From positions 3,596,001 through 3,660,000 of the forward strand of contig NZ_AP022671.1 in assembly GCF_011405515.1 (NCBI RefSeq): a stretch of 64,000 bases of DNA, written 5' to 3'. Shown piece after piece: positions 30,824 through 44,557 of this stretch. The translations under genes were made by a program, and so were the position numbers. The notes below the pieces were generated by a model. It saw only the letters and a list, made by a program, of their open reading frames with translations. It was not told the DNA's origin and did no database searches. The number at the start of each line of letters is the position of its first letter. Positions within the stretch are counted from its first letter, which is position 1. Source of the DNA: Nitrospira sp. KM1 (GTDB lineage: Bacteria > Nitrospirota > Nitrospiria > Nitrospirales > Nitrospiraceae).

Positions 30824-31057
30824 ATAACCGATAACATTCACTATCAACGCATCGAATGTCCAAGTAGCAGTGGATAGTCCGTATGCACGAGGATTTTTGC
30901 CGATTAAATTTAGCCCGGAATAAAACGCAACGTGCATGAGGAGACTACGATATAGATTCGCACGTTGGATTGATTAGGCTGAGCACAAGGCCTTGAAGTG
31001 GCATGTTTATTTTCTCCTCTTGTTTTGATATCTGTTGCAGACCTGCCGGAGGTTGTT

Positions 31058-32437
31058 ATGCCGGACGTTGTCAGAAATGTGCTTGTCGTTGATGATGATC
31101 ATGAGATGCGGGCGTTGCTTCGGGACGTGCTGGAGCAGCATGGCTATACCGTGAGTCTCGCCTCCAATGGACAGGACGCTCTCGTGACCCTCCGTGAGAA
31201 AGAATACCCGGTCGTTCTCACCGATCTGCGGATGAAAGGGATGCAGGGGATCGAACTGCTCACACAGATCAAACAATCGTGGCCCGATACCAACGTGATT
31301 CTGATGACCGCGTTCGGCAGCGTGGAAACTGCCATTCAGGCCATGAAACAAGGCGCCTATGATTATCTGATGAAGCCGGTGAAGAATGAGGATCTGTCGC
31401 GAGCGACCGAGCGCGCGTTCCGTGAAGCGCTGCTCAGAAGCGAGATTCACCGTCTCCGACGGGAAGTGGATAGGGAATACAGCTTCAGTCAAATTCTCGG
31501 AAAGAGCAAGGCGATGCGGGAGGTGTTTGACTTGATCCGCCGCGTTGCGAACAGTCCGACCAACATCCTGATCACAGGGGAAAGCGGAACGGGCAAGGAG
31601 CTTGTGGCCAAGGCGCTTCACTACAATAGCGAGCGGAAGGACGCTGCCTTCATTCCCGTCAACTGCGCTGCGATTCCAGAGCATTTGCTGGAAAGTGAAT
31701 TGTTCGGCCACGTGCGCGGCGCCTTCACGGATGCAAGAACGGACAAGCGCGGCCTGTTTGAAGAGGCGGAACGGGGATCTCTTTTTCTCGATGAGATCAG
31801 CGAGTTGCCGCACATGCTGCAGGCCAAGCTTCTTCGCGCCATCCAGGAAAAGGAAATCAGGCGCGTAGGTGCGACCAAGTCAACTGCCGTAGATGTCCGG
31901 GTCATTGCGGCGACAAATTTGAATCTGGCGGAGGAAGTCAAAGCGAAACGGTTCAGAGGGGACCTATACTACCGTCTCAATGTGATCGAAGTGAAACTTC
32001 CACCGCTGCGGGAACGACGTGAAGATATTCCTCTGCTCGTGGATGCATTTTTGAAAAAGTTCGGGCAGGAGCGGGGCAAGGATGTGAAAGGGATGAACGA
32101 AGCCACGTTGGCCATCTTGATGGACTATGCGTGGCCGGGAAACGTTCGGGAACTGGAGAATGTCATTGAGCGAGCGGTCACGCTCAGTCGGACAGACAGG
32201 ATTCTCCCCGACGATCTCCCCGGGACCATCCAAGGAGCACGCGGTGATCGCCGCGTCATTGACGAGGGTGCGGAGAAGATGGTTTCCCTGCATGAAGTGG
32301 AAAAGGAGTACATCAAGAAAATTCTCGAAAAGCTGGGCGGCAATAAGTATCAGGCTGCGCAGGTTCTGGGGATCGACCGCAAGACGCTGTACCGAAAGCT
32401 TGCAGAGATCGAGGCTGTCCTCCCGCCGGACGAATGA
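31058..32437 (+). CDS. Sigma-54-dependent response regulator
   Basis: A 459-residue NtrC-family activator. The receiver has VLVVDDDHEMR and phospho-Asp in VVLTDLRMKGMQG. The AAA+ domain has Walker A GESGTGKE and Walker B GSLFLDEISEL; the sigma-54 loop reads GAFTDA. The C-terminal Fis-type HTH contains NKYQAAQVLGIDRKTLYRKL. The ATG follows GGAGG at 7 bases. The kinase gene follows after 22 bases, so the two form a two-component system. Targets are unknown; the strong sigma-54 promoter at 36692 downstream is a candidate. Confidence 0.92.
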   Translation: MPDVVRNVLVVDDDHEMRALLRDVLEQHGYTVSLASNGQDALVTLREKEYPVVLTDLRMKGMQGIELLTQIKQSWPDTNVILMTAFGSVETAIQAMKQGAYDYLMKPVKNEDLSRATERAFREALLRSEIHRLRREVDREYSFSQILGKSKAMREVFDLIRRVANSPTNILITGESGTGKELVAKALHYNSERKDAAFIPVNCAAIPEHLLESELFGHVRGAFTDARTDKRGLFEEAERGSLFLDEISELPHMLQAKLLRAIQEKEIRRVGATKSTAVDVRVIAATNLNLAEEVKAKRFRGDLYYRLNVIEVKLPPLRERREDIPLLVDAFLKKFGQERGKDVKGMNEATLAILMDYAWPGNVRELENVIERAVTLSRTDRILPDDLPGTIQGARGDRRVIDEGAEKMVSLHEVEKEYIKKILEKLGGNKYQAAQVLGIDRKTLYRKLAEIEAVLPPDE

Positions 32438-34613: not shown

Positions 34614-36002
34614 ATGAACGAATCTTCATCACGGGATGCGTGTTTGCAGCAGGATCCTGTCCTGATGGTTCGCATTGAGACGATCAGCCAGCTGGGCGCG
34701 GTCCTCTCCGATCGGATCGCGATCATGGACCGTCAGTTCAACATCACATACATGAACGGCCCTGCCGAAAGCGGGGCATTCGAAGAGTTGAAAGAAGTCA
34801 AGCTGGGGAAGTGCTACGAAACGTTTACACGGAGGCTGGAACCTTGCGAATCGTGTCCAGCTGTTAGGATGTTTGATCACCGCGACCCTCGCTCGGGGTG
34901 CTGTGACGTCACGCTAGAGCGCGCCGCTTGCGGTTTATACCAGGCCTTTCCGCTCCTCACGGGGCAAGGACAAGTTGGTTCTATGCTGGCTCTGTTCGAG
35001 CCTCGATCCGGAAAACCCTCCATCGGCCCGGCATCCAAATCGAGGCCGGTCTCTCCCGGTATGGCGGGGGAGTCTCTGGGAAAGCTCATCGGCCGGAGCG
35101 ACGTTATGCAGAGGATGTTCGACCTGATCCGTGTGGTCGCAGACACTTCTGCGACCGTCCTGATCGAAGGGGAAAGCGGGACCGGCAAAGAACTGGTGGC
35201 CAGGACGATACACGAGTCGAGTCCCAGGGCAGGGAAGCCATTCGTGGTGGTTGACTGCGGATCGCTACCGGAAACCTTGCTGGAGAGCGAGCTGTTCGGC
35301 CATGTCAAGGGGGCCTTCACCGGAGCGGTGGCCAACAAGCGGGGCCTATTCGAAGAGGCAGACGGCGGCACTATTTTTCTCGATGAGCTTGCAGACACTT
35401 CTCCGGTCTTCCAAGCCAAGCTGCTTCGGGTGCTTCAAGAGGGCGAGATCAAGCCGGTCGGCGGGATGCGCCCAGTTAAGATCGACGTGCGAATCGTCTC
35501 AGCGACAAACCGGGACTTGGTCCCCCTCGTCAAAGCCAAACGATTCCGTCAAGATCTCTATTATCGATTGGCGGTTCTGCCGCTGTGCGTTCCGCCACTT
35601 CGAGATCGGCGGGAGGACATTCCGTTGCTGGTGAATCATTTTTTGGAAGAATCCTCCAGACGGCACTGGAAGCCGGTAGCGAGGGTGTCGCCGCAGGTAT
35701 TGCGCATGCTCACTGATGCCGCTTGGCCGGGGAATGTGCGTGAACTTCAACATTATATTGAAAGGGCCGTCGTGACGGCGCCGGACGACCTCCAAGTCTG
35801 TTCCAATGCATCCATCACGCTACCGGCTTCGTCGCTGCGTGATCTCCGGTCTAAAACGCGCGAAACCGTGAAGGAGGTTGAGCGGGCATGCATTCTCCAA
35901 GCACTCGATAGTACACAAGGGAATCGGACCAAAGCAGCAAAGCTGCTCAAAATCAGTCGGGCCAGCCTCTATAATAAGCTGCGATTTCACTGCATCTCCT
36001 AG
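34614..36002 (+). CDS. PAS-type sigma-54-dependent transcriptional activator
   Basis: A 462-residue activator without a receiver. The N-terminal PAS-like domain has [19 protein letters not shown] and a Cys-rich segment ([18 protein letters not shown]) resembling PAS domains that bind metal, haem or Fe-S ligands. The AAA+ domain has GESGTGKE, the canonical GAFTGA loop and [12 protein letters not shown] Fis HTH ([20 protein letters not shown]) ends the protein. GTG 34587 overlapping the receiver stop is an alternative start. It is the nearest activator to the promoter of the multicopper oxidase. A repeat element begins on its stop codon. Confidence 0.92.
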
Positions 36003-36390
36003 CAGGCTGTTGACAAAGTCCGCCAGCGGCGTTCTCGCGGGACACAGCCGCCTCACTATCTCGGCGGCGTTCACAGGCGTGCCGTGCCTTATTCGGCACG
36101 GCGTGAACCTCAGAGGCTCAACGTACGGGACGGGAACACGACTGTTCCCACAGCAGTGGGCGGGCGGGTGAGACCTGGGTAAGAGCGGCCTTGGCCGCTT
36201 GGGGCGGGCGGGTGAGAACGGCTACGCTTCGCCTCCAAGACACTGGGCGCTCATCGACTCGCGCCCGTCCGCAAACGTGGCGCTCATTATTCTTCGCGCC
36301 GCGGACCTCGCTGCGGCCTTGAGGGAAACCGACGCGTCTTGGCGCGTCGGGGCGGGTGGGTGAGAAAAGACGCCTTTCTGAACAGCCTGC
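36002..36390. mobile_element. MITE-like element with 17-bp terminal inverted repeats
   Basis: GCAGGCTGTTGACAAAG (36002-36018) and the complement of CTTTCTGAACAGCCTGC (36374-36390) match at 15 of 17 positions. The interior has no ORF of quality. It holds strong hairpins (GCCGTGCC/GGCACGGC; AGCGGCC/GGCCGCT) and three near-copies of GGGCGGGCGGGTGAGA. The left end covers the stop codon of the preceding regulator. It resembles an element I recall as recurring in Nitrospira intergenic DNA, but I cannot verify that here. Confidence 0.6.
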
Positions 36391-36495
36391 AGGGCAGGCT
36401 AATGACGCCGTGACCTCAGACACGACTCCATTTCCGAGGGCATCACGTAGTTTGTCAACACATTGCTAGTCCACCACTGTCCCGTTCTGCCTCAT

Positions 36496-36527
36496 TGTCT
36501 CTGAGACGGTGTCTACGCCGTTGGACA
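36496..36527. promoter_or_regulatory. Upstream activator site 1 (TGTC half-sites)
   Basis: Three half-sites are spaced by 14 bases: TGTC (36496-36499), TGTC (36510-36513) and GACA (36524-36527). The last two lie in an inverted repeat CGGTGTC-N10-GACACCG. The position, about 180 bases upstream of the -24/-12 promoter, suits an enhancer-binding protein. Confidence 0.55.
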
Positions 36528-36578
36528 CCGAGAAGTCCTCGAATCATGCGGAGTTCCCGTTTCTGGGTCATGTCGCGT

Positions 36579-36596
36579 TGTCCAAAACATTGGACA
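36579..36596. promoter_or_regulatory. Upstream activator site 2 (TGTC-N10-GACA)
   Basis: TGTC (36579-36582) and GACA (36593-36596) lie in the perfect 8-bp inverted repeat TTGTCCAA-AACA-TTGGACAA (36578-36597). It has the same TGTC-N10-GACA geometry as site 1; the centres are 69 bases apart and about 105 bases from the promoter. Confidence 0.6.
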
Positions 36597-36691
36597 ATGC
36601 TTTTTGCGGTTCGTTTCTGACCCTGCACCACCTTCATCGTAACTCTCATTCGAGCCTGAGGAATTTTGGTTTTGTGCCTGCACGAATGCGC

Positions 36692-36708
36692 GTGGCCCGC
36701 GATTTGCG
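36692..36708 (+). promoter_or_regulatory. Sigma-54 (-24/-12) promoter of the multicopper oxidase
   Basis: GTGGCCCGCGATTTGCG matches the -24/-12 consensus, with GG and GC separated by exactly 10 bases (TGG at 36693, TTGC at 36704). The predicted start near 36719 gives a leader of about 210 bases before the ATG at 36932, with no ORF of quality inside. Confidence 0.7.
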
Positions 36709-36931
36709 CTAGCTCGTGGTTGCCGGCGGGGGCACGGGTGATTAGGACCGGCCTCCGAATAACCCGATCCTTCATGAGAAGAACCCCCGCCGGTTCTAAA
36801 TCGCCTGATGGGATGAGTTGAGCGTACGGCCGGTATTCGCGAGAGCCTAACGGCACAGACATCAGCCAATCCATACAAGTGTCAACAATCCGAACCGCCC
36901 TATTCAGGGCATTATGACAGGAGGCCGTACG

Positions 36932-39900
36932 ATGAAGGATGTTCGTGTTCACCATAAGCGAAGACGACGACGCGGATCCGCTCTGCTGTTGCAGAGCATT
37001 CTGCTCGTGGGGTGTTTGGTGATTACATCGGGACTACAGGCCGCAGGTCCCGGCGAAGCATCGCACAGCGAACATGCGAGTCCTGTCTCACTGCCAGGCT
37101 GGACTCAGCAGTTGAAAGGACAAACAGTCGTCGAGGATACCATCGAGGGCCGTCCTGAGCGTTCAGAAAAAATGGAACTGCAGCATCATCGTCTGATGCG
37201 GCGGCTCGAAGAACAAGCTCAAAAAGACGCCCAGGCGCAACAGACATCCGGTGCCTTCAACAATATGTCCATGATGCACCAGTACATGGGACAGGACGGC
37301 AGCAGTTTCCTGCTCATGACAGATACGAAGAAGGGCGAGCCGGTTCTCTCGTCCGGGGGGAGATGTCCGTCCAATGCACCGCAGAAGATTTACGACGTCT
37401 CGATGATCAATATCGAGATCACGTTGAACCGCTGGCTCGACTATTATCCCGGGTATATGTACGTGTTGACCGAGGACGTCGCCAAGGCACGGGCGGAAGA
37501 AACCGCGAACAAGGAGTCACGTGAAAAAGACGGATTTGATCCCGGTGCAGTCAGCACCGGTTTACAGGGCGATGTGATCCAGCCGTTGGTACTCCGTGCC
37601 AATCAGGGAGACTGTGTCAAGATGACGCTCCGCAATCAGATGGAGGGCGAGGACGGGAGCCTGTTCATTCAAGCGTCCAGCATGATCGTGAGCGCAACCG
37701 GGAAGCCGGCGACGACTACCAATCCCGACTCGATCATATCGCCCGGCAAGGCGCAGGAATTTGAATGGTATATCCATCCGCACATGCAGGAAGGTGTCCG
37801 GCAGTTCCACTCTTACAGCCATGACCGCGAGCTGACCGTCATGGGTCTCTTCGGCGCGTTCATCGTCGAACCGAAGGGTTCGATGTACTACGACTCGCTG
37901 GGCACCGGGCCCGACAAAGCTGTGCAGACCGGGTGGCAGGTGAATATCGACAACGGGTCCGGGCCGGACTTTCGCGAGTTTGTGCTCTTCTATCATGAGA
38001 TCGGCGATGAAGCGTTTCGTCCGTTGAACAAGAAGGGCGACTTCCTGCCGCAACGCGATCCTTTGACGGACGCCTACCGACCTGGAGGCCGCGCGATCAA
38101 TTACCGCAGCGAGCCTTTTGGGATCGATGAAATGCATCTGCAGCACGAATATTTTGGGTTCGAAGACGAGTCCCTGGCCTATAGTTCGTATACTTTCGGC
38201 GACACGCCGACCACGATTGCCCGCGGTTATCTGGGAGATCCGGTCAAATGGCGGCTGGTGCACGGAGGATCCGAGGTGTTCCATTCCCACCATCCCCACA
38301 GCGGATCGATCCGCTGGCAGCGGAGCCCCGGCACGGAGCCCAACAATATGTGGGCGATGGGGCAGGACGGTCCGGTGAAGTATCCGGTCGTGCGGACGAA
38401 GTCCGACCGAGTGGACGTGGAAGTCATCGGCCCGTCGGAAGCGTTGGATCTGGAGCCTGAGTGCGGTGGGGGCGGCTGTCAACATTTGGCCGGCGAATTT
38501 CTTTACCATTGCCATGTCGCCCACCATTATGTAGCGGGGATGTGGGGCTACGGACGATTCTATAATACGCTCCAGGTCGGAGCGGCCCACACGGATACGA
38601 TGCCGGATCTACAAGAGCTGCCGGACCGGAAGGGTCGTATGAAGCAAGGCGTTTCGTCCGACAAGCTCATCGGGACCACCGTCGATTGGTTCGGCAAGAC
38701 GTTCAAGATCGTCGACAAGAACCAGAAGACCAACTGGAAATCCGATCCGGTCATCGTGAACATCAAGGATTGGGTCGAGATGTTCGTGCCGGCTCAGGGG
38801 CAACCGGGCCATACGAACGACGAGAAGGGCCAGATCATGGCCTATGACTCGACAGTGTGGGACTGGAAGTGGGACGGCAACATCGCCCGCGGCGAACGGG
38901 AAAGCACCGCGCAGAATCCCAAGTATCGATGGGCGGCCAAGTGGGACGACAGCACCAGACCCGCGATCTTATTCGATCCGACCACGGGCAAGATGGCCTG
39001 GCCGCTCTTCAAGCCGCATTTCGGCAAGCGCGTGCCGTTCTCAGCCAACCATAGCGGGGCACCGTGGCTTGAGCCGATCCATCAGGAAGCGAACGGTGAA
39101 CGAACCTCCGAGCCGGCGAAGCCGGGTGAGCAGGGCCGTTGGAGCCTTTGTCCCGAAAATGCCAATCAGAAGTTCTTTAATATTCACTTTACGCGCATGC
39201 CGATCACGCTGGCCAAGAAGCAGGGGAAAGAGCCGGCCATTACGGACAAGGATGGGTTGATCTATGTGCTGCACGAAGAAGAGCGCCTCATACGGGCGAA
39301 CGATGACCTGAAGCTTCCGGCGGTCATTCGTGCCAACGTGTATGACTGCGTGGACCTCATACTCACGAGCGAGTGGGACGACGATGATTACACCAACTTT
39401 CAGTCGTCCAAGATCAATATCCATCCCCACTTCTTCCAGTTCGACACGGGGAATTCGGATGGAGTGATCTCCGGCTTCGAGTATGAGATGTCCGTCCGCC
39501 CATTTACGATGTGGGGGAAGGGAAAGAAACACGGGATGCCGGCGCCGATGGTCGCCAAGCTCGTCGGAGGGGCGAAAGCGGGAGCCAAGAGCATCAAGAT
39601 TCAAATGGCACCGGGCGCCTCGCCGTTCCACGTGAACACCGAGGTCATGGTCGGCATGGATTGTTTGGAGCGGGGTCACGACGCGACTGCCTCATTGCCG
39701 CGTGACAAGAGCTGCTCAGAGGTCGCCCGCATCAAGGACATCAAGGGCGATCAGGTGACGTTTTTCAAGCCGTTGAAGCACAATCATCCGGCCAACGATC
39801 TTGTGTCGCCGGAGTTCGTCCGTTATCGGTGGTGGGTGGACGTGGACATGGGAACCGTGTTTTGGCATGACCACGCGTTCGGGGCGACGACCTGGCCGCA

Positions 39901-41869
39901 TGGCGGATTCGGCGTGACACTGGTCGAGCCGTTCGGATCCACCTACCACGATCCGAAAAACGGTAAGTTGGTGTACAGCGGCCCTATCGCCGATATTCAT
40001 AGCAACGAGCCGATTGGGGCCGGGGTCAGCGGCAGTTTCCGTGAATTGATGGTCTCCATCCACGACACGGTGCCGCACACCGTCAATGTCATTGAAGCCG
40101 GCAATCCCCCGGGGCAGCCGGTCGAAGTGGCGTTAGAGGCGGGCAAGACGGTGTCGTTCCAGATGCCCGACAAGATTTTAAACGCACCGAACAAGTATCT
40201 GAATGGGGGCACGCATACGACCGGCAGCGGGTTCAACTTCCGCGCGGAGCCGTTTGCGCAGCGCCTGTCGAACAATCCGGATACATCGAAGCTGTTCAGC
40301 AGCATGGTCCATGGGGATCCCGACACGCCGTTGTTGCGGGCGTATACGGGCGACACCATGGTATTCCGGCTGTTGCATCAGCTGATGAATGAGTCGCACG
40401 TGTGGACCATCTCCGGCCATACCTTCCTGACGGAGCGGTACGCGGCGGATGCCAATCGGAAGAACTCGATTCACGTCGGGATCGCCGAACGATACGATCT
40501 CGTGACCAAGGCGGGTGGATTCCAGGGCATGCCGGGCGACTACATCCACTTCAACGGCCGGACGTCGCATTTCGCCGAAGGCGGATGGGGTATCGTGCGC
40601 GTCCTCGACAAGCCGGTAGCGGATCTTATGCCGCTTCCTCGCGGGACCAATCCACTGGGCATTCCGGCGACGCCGAGTTCCGTGTGTCCGGCCGATGCGC
40701 CGATCAAGACCTTCAACGTCGTGGCGTTGGACCGCCCAATGAAACTGAATCCAAAAACGCCGGATGTGATTGAGGTGGACTTCGAGCGAAAGATCGAAAT
40801 GACTATGCCGGAAGGCAAGATCTTTGCGCTTGAAGAGGAGGCCATGACGGTAGCGAGCGGGGGAACGCCGAGCCCGCTGACGCTACGGGTCAACCTTGGC
40901 GACTGCGTCAAGGTCATTCTGAAAAACAAAATGAAGGGCAGCCGGGCGTCTTTCTTTGCCCCTGGATTAGCCTTCGATCCGAAGGACAGTCAGGGCCTGA
41001 ACGTCGGCAACAATGGTGGCGATCAGACGATCGGTCCCGGTGAGAGCCGCACCTATAGGTACTATGCGCATCCAGCCAACAAGGAGACGACCTCACTGGT
41101 GTGGGACGGCGGGAATATCGTCGTGAATCCGCGCAATGGATTGTACGGAGCGGTCATTGTGGGCCCCAAGGGGTCACAATACCGCGATCCCGTAACCGGT
41201 GCAGACATTTCACAGAAGAATTCATGGCGGGCGGACGTCATCGTTGACGCCAGCCTGCCGGAGAACGTGGGCAAGCGGAACTATCGCGATGTGGCCCTCT
41301 TCTTCCAAGACGAGGATAACATCATCGGGACCTCGTTCATGCCTTATGTACAGAACGTCGCGGGATTGACGAGCGTCAACTACCGCGCCGAACCGTACAA
41401 GTTCCGGGAGGAACAAGGCTGCTCCTTGGGGAGAATCTTCCAGCCTTGCGTGGTGGACAAACCGGAAGATCCTTTCACGCCGCTGATCGAAGCGCACGCG
41501 GGTGATCCGGTTCGTATCCATGTACTCGGTGCCAATAGCGAGCAGAATGGGATGTTCGGTGTCGAAGGACACGAATGGCCGATCGAACCGTACATGCCGG
41601 GCGCCGATATGATCAGCGTCGTCGAATACGCCGGGTCTGAGGTGCTCGACGTATTCATCCGGGGCGGGGCCGGAGGACCCTATCGTCAAGCCGGAGACTT
41701 CGTCTGGTCGAATAACCGACTGCCGTATGCGCAATCGGGACAGTGGGGTTACCTCCGTGTATTGCCGACGGACGATACACGGATACAGTCGTTGGGTGCT
41801 TCGGGCTCCGCGCTCAAGCGCGCGGGACAGGACCAGCAGCCTCAAGCGAGTCCGACGGCGATGAAGTAA
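36932..41869 (+). CDS. Giant multicopper oxidase (MnxG-like), exported
   Basis: This 1645-residue secreted protein has a signal peptide (KRRRRRGSALLLQ, then hydrophobic to about residue 38). It is made of repeated cupredoxin domains. Copper-site motifs include FHSYSHDRELTVMGLFG (near 293), EVFHSHHPHSG, LYHCHVAHHYVAGMWGYG (HCH at 526-528), NIHPHFFQFDTGNSDG (HPH at 831-833), VFWHDHAFGATTWPHGG (HDH at 979-981) and a later GHTF (near 1163). Very large multicopper oxidases with HPHFFQFD-type sites include bacterial Mn(II) oxidases such as MnxG and McoA, so metal oxidation is plausible; Fe(II), phenols or another donor are possible. GGAGG precedes ATG 36932. Two cytochrome c genes follow. It is likely controlled from the sigma-54 promoter at 36692. 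Confidence 0.88.
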   Translation: MKDVRVHHKRRRRRGSALLLQSILLVGCLVITSGLQAAGPGEASHSEHASPVSLPGWTQQLKGQTVVEDTIEGRPERSEKMELQHHRLMRRLEEQAQKDAQAQQTSGAFNNMSMMHQYMGQDGSSFLLMTDTKKGEPVLSSGGRCPSNAPQKIYDVSMINIEITLNRWLDYYPGYMYVLTEDVAKARAEETANKESREKDGFDPGAVSTGLQGDVIQPLVLRANQGDCVKMTLRNQMEGEDGSLFIQASSMIVSATGKPATTTNPDSIISPGKAQEFEWYIHPHMQEGVRQFHSYSHDRELTVMGLFGAFIVEPKGSMYYDSLGTGPDKAVQTGWQVNIDNGSGPDFREFVLFYHEIGDEAFRPLNKKGDFLPQRDPLTDAYRPGGRAINYRSEPFGIDEMHLQHEYFGFEDESLAYSSYTFGDTPTTIARGYLGDPVKWRLVHGGSEVFHSHHPHSGSIRWQRSPGTEPNNMWAMGQDGPVKYPVVRTKSDRVDVEVIGPSEALDLEPECGGGGCQHLAGEFLYHCHVAHHYVAGMWGYGRFYNTLQVGAAHTDTMPDLQELPDRKGRMKQGVSSDKLIGTTVDWFGKTFKIVDKNQKTNWKSDPVIVNIKDWVEMFVPAQGQPGHTNDEKGQIMAYDSTVWDWKWDGNIARGERESTAQNPKYRWAAKWDDSTRPAILFDPTTGKMAWPLFKPHFGKRVPFSANHSGAPWLEPIHQEANGERTSEPAKPGEQGRWSLCPENANQKFFNIHFTRMPITLAKKQGKEPAITDKDGLIYVLHEEERLIRANDDLKLPAVIRANVYDCVDLILTSEWDDDDYTNFQSSKINIHPHFFQFDTGNSDGVISGFEYEMSVRPFTMWGKGKKHGMPAPMVAKLVGGAKAGAKSIKIQMAPGASPFHVNTEVMVGMDCLERGHDATASLPRDKSCSEVARIKDIKGDQVTFFKPLKHNHPANDLVSPEFVRYRWWVDVDMGTVFWHDHAFGATTWPHGGFGVTLVEPFGSTYHDPKNGKLVYSGPIADIHSNEPIGAGVSGSFRELMVSIHDTVPHTVNVIEAGNPPGQPVEVALEAGKTVSFQMPDKILNAPNKYLNGGTHTTGSGFNFRAEPFAQRLSNNPDTSKLFSSMVHGDPDTPLLRAYTGDTMVFRLLHQLMNESHVWTISGHTFLTERYAADANRKNSIHVGIAERYDLVTKAGGFQGMPGDYIHFNGRTSHFAEGGWGIVRVLDKPVADLMPLPRGTNPLGIPATPSSVCPADAPIKTFNVVALDRPMKLNPKTPDVIEVDFERKIEMTMPEGKIFALEEEAMTVASGGTPSPLTLRVNLGDCVKVILKNKMKGSRASFFAPGLAFDPKDSQGLNVGNNGGDQTIGPGESRTYRYYAHPANKETTSLVWDGGNIVVNPRNGLYGAVIVGPKGSQYRDPVTGADISQKNSWRADVIVDASLPENVGKRNYRDVALFFQDEDNIIGTSFMPYVQNVAGLTSVNYRAEPYKFREEQGCSLGRIFQPCVVDKPEDPFTPLIEAHAGDPVRIHVLGANSEQNGMFGVEGHEWPIEPYMPGADMISVVEYAGSEVLDVFIRGGAGGPYRQAGDFVWSNNRLPYAQSGQWGYLRVLPTDDTRIQSLGASGSALKRAGQDQQPQASPTAMK

Positions 41870-43144: not shown

Positions 43145-44557
43145 ATGGAAATGAAGCGTAGAGTCATGCTCGGAGGAGCGGTCGTCGCCCTGATGGGCTT
43201 GATGGCCGTCCCTCGTCTGTTGCTGGGTAGCGAGCAGCAGACGAGGGCGAAGGAATTGATCCAGCAGGCCTGCGTGTCCTGTCACCGGCTGGAGGGACAT
43301 GCGGAGTCGAGGTTCAATCTCCGGGCGCCGGATCTTATTTGGGCGGGAAGCAAGTATCAACGCCCATGGCTCATCCGATGGCTCACCGGCAAAGAATCGC
43401 CGCTGTATGCGAAGGGATATCGATGGGACCTTAGCGAGGGTCCGGTCAAACATCCGGTCGTGACCGAACCTGAGGCGAATGCCATCGCCGACTACTTTGA
43501 GAGGAATAACAAAGATCCTCGGGTGAAGGTCGGCACATTCGACCTGTCGAAGGTCAGCAAGTTCGACGTCTCATTCGGCGGTATAGCCTATAAAGGCCAT
43601 GCCTGCCTCGGCTGCCATACGATCGAAGAAAACGGGAAACTCATCGGCGGTCCGCAGAGCACCGCCCTCCAGAATGCGGGCCAGCGGTACAACATGGACT
43701 GGCTCTACCGGTTTGGGCAGAATCCGCAAAACTTTATCACTCATACCGGAGAATTCTTGGCCGATGCGACGGATCCGCAACTGCGGGCGGTGATCGGATA
43801 CCTCGCGGCGCAGGGCGTCAAGGACTTCAAGTACTACGAGCCCTGGACGAGTCAGGAGTTTACGAACGCGAGCGTCGATCGAGGCACGGCGCTGTACAAA
43901 GAGTATTGCGCCCAGTGCCACGGATTCAGCGGCAAGGGCGACGGTCCGGCGGCTTCTGGTCTGGAGCCAAAACCGGCGATTCACGCCAACATGCCGTTTG
44001 ACAAGCTGCCGATCGAATACGTCTACAACGTCATCAATCACGGCGGTGCGGCGATGGGCAAGTCTCCGAGCATGCCCTATTGGAACCTGACGATCGGCCA
44101 GCAGGGTGTGGCCGACGTGATTGCCTATCTCAAGGTCACATTCAAGGGCGCGCCCGAAGCGTCTGCCGCTGTGCCAAGCGGCGGGCCATTGGGCGTTTGT
44201 CCTCAGCCCCGCAAGACGGTCAAAGCTCCGGGAGAATTCATTTCGAGGGGAAATCCCTTGCCGCCTTCTGCGGATATGGTCGAGGCAGGGAAGGCGCTCT
44301 TTTTACAGAGCGCCCAGCCGGTGGCTTGTGCCTTGTGTCACGGGAATCAAGGCGACGGGCAGGGTGTCATGGGCGCGGCCCTGGTCCCGCAGCCAAGAAA
44401 TTTCACGTGCGGGTCGATGATGAAGGATCTGCCGGACGGGCAGCTCTTTTGGATCATCAAGAACGGTTCACCCGGCACCGGCATGATGTCCTTCGCCGGA
44501 CTGCCCGACGACCAGGTCTGGCAGCTCGTCCACTACATCCGAACGTTGGCTCGTTAA
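43145..44557 (+). CDS. Tetrahaem c-type cytochrome
   Basis: A 470-residue exported or membrane-anchored cytochrome with an N-terminal hydrophobic segment (VMLGGAVVALMGLMAVPRLL) and four CxxCH haem motifs. CVSCH is near residue 40, CLGCH near 157, CAQCH near 257 and CALCH near 396. The segments around them look like separate class I cytochrome domains; the third has the SGKGDGPAASGL loop of the cbb3-CcoP/NirC kind. AAGGAG precedes the ATG. It lies downstream of the multicopper oxidase and a broken dihaem cytochrome, so it may carry electrons for that oxidase or into the respiratory chain. Met/His axial ligands were not traced. Confidence 0.88.
   Translation: MEMKRRVMLGGAVVALMGLMAVPRLLLGSEQQTRAKELIQQACVSCHRLEGHAESRFNLRAPDLIWAGSKYQRPWLIRWLTGKESPLYAKGYRWDLSEGPVKHPVVTEPEANAIADYFERNNKDPRVKVGTFDLSKVSKFDVSFGGIAYKGHACLGCHTIEENGKLIGGPQSTALQNAGQRYNMDWLYRFGQNPQNFITHTGEFLADATDPQLRAVIGYLAAQGVKDFKYYEPWTSQEFTNASVDRGTALYKEYCAQCHGFSGKGDGPAASGLEPKPAIHANMPFDKLPIEYVYNVINHGGAAMGKSPSMPYWNLTIGQQGVADVIAYLKVTFKGAPEASAAVPSGGPLGVCPQPRKTVKAPGEFISRGNPLPPSADMVEAGKALFLQSAQPVACALCHGNQGDGQGVMGAALVPQPRNFTCGSMMKDLPDGQLFWIIKNGSPGTGMMSFAGLPDDQVWQLVHYIRTLAR

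Follow-up and report, generated by a model that had tools for sequence, protein, structure and literature searches.

A giant multicopper oxidase (MCO) gene is preceded by a sigma-54 promoter with two inverted repeats, sites A and B, upstream of it and a structured leader RNA at the predicted transcription start. We consider it likely that this is a sigma-54 unit activated through sites A and B by E3, the enhancer-binding protein encoded just upstream, and that the RNA adds control of MCO translation. The feature lies between the E3 gene (34614-36002) and the MCO gene in the window, which is the whole 64-kb stretch of DNA analysed here (G000:C1:3596001-3660000 of a complete 4.51-Mb genome, G000) and to which unprefixed coordinates refer. 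An earlier note on this DNA had described the region as free of genes, and no gene was found in 36003-36931. Its reading of the promoter is supported, with two corrections given below, but the structured RNA that the promoter would start had been missed. From gene content, and because published work on Nitrospira fits the family-wide MCO, G000 is taken to be a Nitrospira-type member of the Nitrospirales. The segment from 36002 to about 36420 resembles a REP-type repeat; with up to 3 mismatches allowed, the 25-base core GCAGGCTGNTGANAAAGTCCGCCAG occurs 19 times in this genome and never in the reversed control.

Activator sites and the sigma-54 promoter

The elements of the promoter region and the target gene are as follows.

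36510-36527, no strand: activator site A, TGTCTACGCCGTTGGACA (TGTCTA-N6-TGGACA), centre 36518.5
36532-36545, + strand: IHF/HU-like element, gAAGtccTcGAATc, degenerate here and shifted by one base
36579-36596, no strand: activator site B, TGTCCAAAACATTGGACA, a perfect palindrome here, centre 36587.5
36693-36708, + strand: sigma-54 -24/-12 promoter, TGGCCCGCGATTTGCG (GG-N10-GC), at a position conserved in orthologues
36719 (+/- 2), + strand: transcription start, predicted from the sigma-54 spacing and the conserved start of the RNA
36932-41869, + strand: MCO, MnxG-like, 1645 aa (PF07732), the target gene

The two inverted repeats were recovered at exactly the positions claimed for them, with their centres 69 bases apart. 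Site A is 183 bp and site B 114 bp upstream of the -24/-12 element, and their six-base arms are complementary at 5/6 and 6/6 positions, respectively. They are the only two matches to TGTC-N10-GACA in the 64-kb window, where 0.96 are expected by chance. An expectation of about one match per window might suggest that the repeats are chance matches in a spacer, but two such matches inside a 300-bp stretch arose in only 1 of 20,000 shuffles and a near-fixed geometry is kept in 45 genomes (see below). Conservation refutes a chance origin, to which we give practically no credence.

In the 4.5-Mb genome TTGTCCAA-N4-TTGGACAA occurs exactly at site B only, and TGTCYA-N6-TRGACA exactly at sites A and B only. 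When one mismatch is allowed the latter pattern has 27 matches genome-wide and 27 in the control, so the pattern alone defines no wider regulon in this genome. A scan of the contigs of many genomes for TTGTCCAA-N4-TTGGACAA gave matches that were spread across many phyla and were mostly chance-like. A third half-site, at 36496, had been placed on a 14-base period; TGTC is indeed present there, but its columns are not conserved in the family and we reject it. A family-conserved TTGCCCCAA-like block occupies 36486-36494, at -24 to -16 from the start of site A.

The -24/-12 element had been called good. It has the GG-N10-GC spacing and a conserved place, but is weak against the strict consensus (2 mismatches), and its -24 part (TGGCCC) is a poor match. 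The genome encodes rpoN (PF04552, E 3e-56), and with the GG-N10-GC element and the upstream activator sites this supplies much of what is expected of a sigma-54 promoter, which would start transcription about 12 bases past the -12. Additionally, the leader RNA starts 13-15 bases past the -12 GC in 57/65 copies, and this fixed spacing provides independent support both for the promoter and for a start near 36719. The IHF-like element is conserved in the family as YAAC-N3-TTGAATT, at columns +22 to +34 of site A, and there are four genes of the HU/IHF family in the genome, within which IHF itself is not told apart.

Conservation of the sites

We compared the MCO upstream regions of 45 Nitrospiraceae genomes (the family names of compared genomes are inferred labels). 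The earlier note had staked its reading on conservation of the inverted repeats in orthologous regions, and this is borne out by site A (TGTCYA-N6-TRGACA), which is found in 45/45 regions (31 exact, 13 with one mismatch and 1 with two), the genomes being related and the counts not independent events. Site A lies 177-185 bp upstream of the best -24/-12 element (194 bp in one genome). Site B is present at up to 2 mismatches in 36/45 genomes, near -115 and usually as TGTCYA-N6-TRGAAW, and is weak or missing in the other nine; its right half outside the present genome is usually TGGAAA-like. The paired geometry claimed earlier, 69 bp, is correct here, but the perfect site B and the 69-bp spacing are peculiar to this genome, since in the family the spacing is mostly 65-67 bp and the right half of B is degenerate.

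The columns between the elements are mostly of low information, which looks like selection and not shared ancestry alone. A scan of 396 genomes in the phylum found the pair pattern in 50, with 0 or 1 match per genome in the control. In class-level relatives (L261, L266, L280 and L281) the same site type and a strong -24/-12 element precede stress-type genes, which encode Hsp20, a YbaK-like editing domain and a phosphoribosyltransferase.

The target gene

The MCO reading frame opens at 36914 but the likelier start is 36932, behind AGGAGG. The product is probably exported, and the MCO query matches 174/175 genomes of the family. The protein is similar to the MnxG model and to PDB 9bxa (E 1e-83). 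MnxG, a manganese-oxidising multicopper oxidase, is the closest named family, but the MCO scores far below its cut-off (108 vs 3100 bits). A periplasmic multicopper oxidase of Nitrospina/Nitrospira that resembles a Mn-oxidising enzyme has been proposed for ROS defence (PMC3578206), a role that is speculative in that paper; we set the MCO beside that protein as a comparison only and assume no identity between them. Downstream of the MCO gene lies a gene (43145-44557) for a cytochrome c that carries several haem-type domains. In the literature searched, outside whose reach many subscription papers lay, neither the sites nor the RNA were described, and no binding-site-level regulation of the MCO gene was found.

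The candidate activator

34614-36002, + strand: E3 enhancer-binding protein (Pfam PF00158, E 6e-69; PF25601; PF02954)

E3 has the layout of an enhancer-binding protein, with a Cys-rich, PAS-like N-terminus, an AAA+ domain with GAFTGA and a Fis-type HTH. It had been described as a PAS-type activator with an intact GAFTGA loop. The loop is intact, but Pfam calls no PAS domain in E3, and it is the strand order in a moderate-confidence model that suggests, with moderate confidence, a PAS-like N-terminus. Four cysteines, C67, C78, C81 and C106, are kept in 94-98% of orthologues, which suggests a metal or redox signal.

The gene order E1-HK-RR-E3-UAS-sigma54-MCO is conserved, and E3 is within 8 kb of the MCO gene in 29/39 loci. 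In the 10 genomes without this linkage E3 is still encoded elsewhere (58-61% identity), and in seven of them (G052, G064, G079, G111, G125, G127 and G151) it has a UAS and -24/-12 element of its own, as it does in G136, outside the set of 10. At these unlinked loci the -24/-12 element is about 178-185 bp downstream of the UAS, and the genes behind it encode an outer-membrane barrel, a 2OG-Fe(II) oxygenase and others. The MCO promoter of these genomes has also retained its site, so the sites go with the regulon and are not tied to one locus. Another family of the order keeps the arrangement E3-UAS-sigma54-MCO. Beside the same site type (65-68 bp spacing), class-level families have NtrC-type activators. 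The UAS-adjacent activators have in common the recognition helix SRAxLYNKL or a near relative of it (SRSSLYNKL, SRATLYNKI), which is absent from the further activators of this genome that were compared. Synteny, the UAS of E3 when unlinked and the shared recognition helix all support the earlier choice of the adjacent activator as the leading candidate, and on sequence grounds E3 is the best candidate to bind sites A and B.

The sites might instead be bound by E1, an NtrC-type response regulator (30998-32437), with E3 as a bystander in the cluster. E1 and its kinase are conserved in the same cluster and the site-adjacent class-level activators are themselves NtrC-type; over AAA-HTH, however, those activators are nearer to E3 than to E1 (about 56% vs 47%). 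The recognition helix of E1 orthologues, IDRKTLYRKL, is unlike the SRAxLYNKL of UAS-adjacent activators. Additionally, E1 has GAFTDA in place of GAFTGA (GAFTDA or GSFTDA in the orthologues seen), which may preclude the usual contact with sigma-54. We regard binding by E1 as unlikely and E3 as the preferred activator.

A three-way-junction leader RNA

36722-36794, + strand: three-way-junction leader RNA (P1, P2 with loop CCGGCC, and P3), 77.3 bits with covariance model R1

Comparison of the leaders gave a block at the predicted start, GCYGGTGAAGG...GGGTGATTnnGGACCGGCCTCCGAATGACCC...P3...CCTTCACCRGC. When 31 sequences were folded singly, nearly all gave the same three-way junction; L273 did not. 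In L273 (1541-3700, from G151) an E3-linked UAS, promoter and RNA stand before a seemingly degraded second MCO copy. In A1, a plain MAFFT alignment of 30 sequences aligned by sequence only, both sides change in 14/27 pairs, and columns 2-10 of P1 are 99.6% paired; 0/500 shuffles of A1 reached any of five measures, and sliding destroyed the signal. In A3, in which 84 matches were aligned to the covariance model, 21/27 pairs have changes on both sides, P1 is 99.5% paired and 0/500 shuffles did as well, although A3, being fitted to the model, is biased in favour of the model structure. The fold is conserved and covaries, as would be expected of a structured RNA.

A long inverted repeat can also serve as a protein site, and the segment past the start could then be a palindromic DNA operator with apparent covariation but no RNA. 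This is very unlikely, as covariation extends over several helices (among them P3, which is nested in P1), the most conserved part is a non-palindromic loop and the reverse strand scores 16 bits against 77. We therefore treat the segment as RNA. Two other candidate elements in the leader were rejected. A minimum-free-energy hairpin further downstream (GTACGGCC/GGCCGTAC) is possible in this genome but did not show up as a conserved feature, and the covarying 5' element is preferred; an intrinsic terminator after P1 was dismissed because the T run is not conserved.

The covariance-model search found the RNA in 113/396 Nitrospirota genomes, comprising nearly all Nitrospiraceae searched and 12 genomes of a second family in the same order; among the 396 there was none outside that order. 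None of the 4227 Rfam models matches the stretch 36000-37000 with E of 1 or less, and none reaches the gathering cut-off at five other loci. The RNA is apparently uncatalogued.

The inspected copies of the RNA precede giant MCO genes. Second matches, where fetched, precede MCO paralogues of 52-64% identity, and the second copy in this genome (G000:C1:1242668-1242739, - strand) has an MCO gene just downstream. These paralogue-linked copies adjoin other activators, with HTH VDRKTIERMV, and mostly have no TGTCYA sites. Conversely, the E3 targets besides MCO genes (barrel, oxygenase) have no RNA. The locus upstream of a 67% MCO paralogue, G000:C1:1613953-1618743, has neither UAS nor RNA. Taken together, the RNA tracks the giant MCO and the UAS tracks E3, which suggests two separable layers that meet at this locus.

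Loop, Shine-Dalgarno and anti-loop

36749-36756, + strand: apical loop CGGCCUCC, invariant in A1 and an 8-nt complement of 36920-36927
36828-36834, + strand: competing anti-loop GGCCGGT, complementary to the loop
36920-36927, + strand: extended Shine-Dalgarno GGAGGCCG of the MCO gene (Shine-Dalgarno plus three bases)

A bare GGAGG would be expected in any Shine-Dalgarno. Among distinct genes with a GGAGG Shine-Dalgarno, CC comes next in 67/79 with the RNA as against 10/74 without it. Conservation supports a pairing of loop and Shine-Dalgarno, with no clear compensatory changes. GGCCGG occurs in 34/45 leaders (about 3 expected, shuffle maximum 8), with up to 12 exact bases, although part of this signal could come from shared descent within clades; the other 11/45 leaders do not have it. 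Loop, Shine-Dalgarno and anti-loop would together form the anatomy of a translational switch, with the direction and trigger as predictions.

Instead of regulating in cis, the RNA might conceivably act in trans, as the 5' end of a small RNA, or form a structure that stabilises the 5' end of the transcript. Its C-rich loop CGGCCUCC is like the anti-Shine-Dalgarno seeds of small RNAs, and T runs follow some P1 stems. We think this rather doubtful, since the T run is missing in many copies, including that in the window, the inspected copies are in leaders of giant MCO genes (even of the 52-64% paralogues with other activators) and a complementary Shine-Dalgarno and anti-loop are present within the same leader. 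Control in cis remains our reading. As a more tentative proposal, the leader RNA may possibly be a new riboswitch class, or another metal or redox RNA sensor, that gates translation of the MnxG-like MCOs of Nitrospirales and whose 5' end is set by sigma-54 promoters with paralogue-specific activators.

Proposed mechanism and relation to known systems

Our explanation starts from what can be read directly in the DNA, namely the sites and their geometry, their conservation, the covariation of the RNA, the promoter-to-RNA spacing and the complementarities; from these we infer protein binding, bending, the start site and the direction of the RNA switch. E3 dimers would bind sites A and B through their Fis-type HTH, and an IHF/HU-like protein beside site A would bend the DNA and bring E3 to the sigma-54 holoenzyme at -24/-12, where the AAA+ domain of E3 would open the promoter. 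With a start at about 36719, the 5' end of the mRNA would be the three-way-junction RNA. The loop CGGCCUCC would pair with GGAGGCCG and block ribosome entry, and pairing of the downstream GGCCGG with the same loop would release the Shine-Dalgarno. Control of the MCO would then have two stages, promoter opening and translation. The site-promoter feature is real and conserved, and its interpretation is probably correct.

The sites resemble those of the NifA/TyrR type (NifA, TGT-N10-ACA), in which the half-sites for a Fis-type HTH dimer are equally spaced to those here; the TyrR-type site is TGTAAA-N6-TTTACA. NifA also combines upstream sites, IHF and sigma-54, as proposed here. Here, in contrast, the half-site is TGTCYA, two sites stand 65-69 bp apart and the target is different. 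E3 is rejected as a NifA (352.6 bits against the equivalog cut-off of 528.85) and is far below the TyrR cut-off (243 vs 576 bits). Inverted repeats upstream of sigma-54 promoters are likewise predicted for activators of the DVU2894/FlrA type (yGTCA-N6-TGACr), but these have a GTCA core and a flagellar context (PMC4641369) and not TGTCYA/TRGACA. In Nitrospira, sigma-54 regulators of nxrAB are activators beside respiratory genes in the same kind of organism, and the available portions of the two reports describe no binding sites for them (PMC6606698, PMC7522533). The present locus differs in that it would control the MCO; its exact site is found nowhere else in the genome. Finally, the leader shares with translational riboswitches a structured 5' region, a conserved loop complementary to the Shine-Dalgarno and a competing anti-loop, but it matches no Rfam family, would begin at a sigma-54 start site and is known from one order.

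Nitrospira dominate nitrite oxidation and include complete ammonia oxidisers. The data link a specific candidate activator to defined sites and to the promoter of a gene present in 174/175 genomes of the family, and they place an apparently new structured RNA on the predicted transcript of that gene. Knowing the signals to which the activator and the RNA may respond would point directly to the role of the giant multicopper oxidase.
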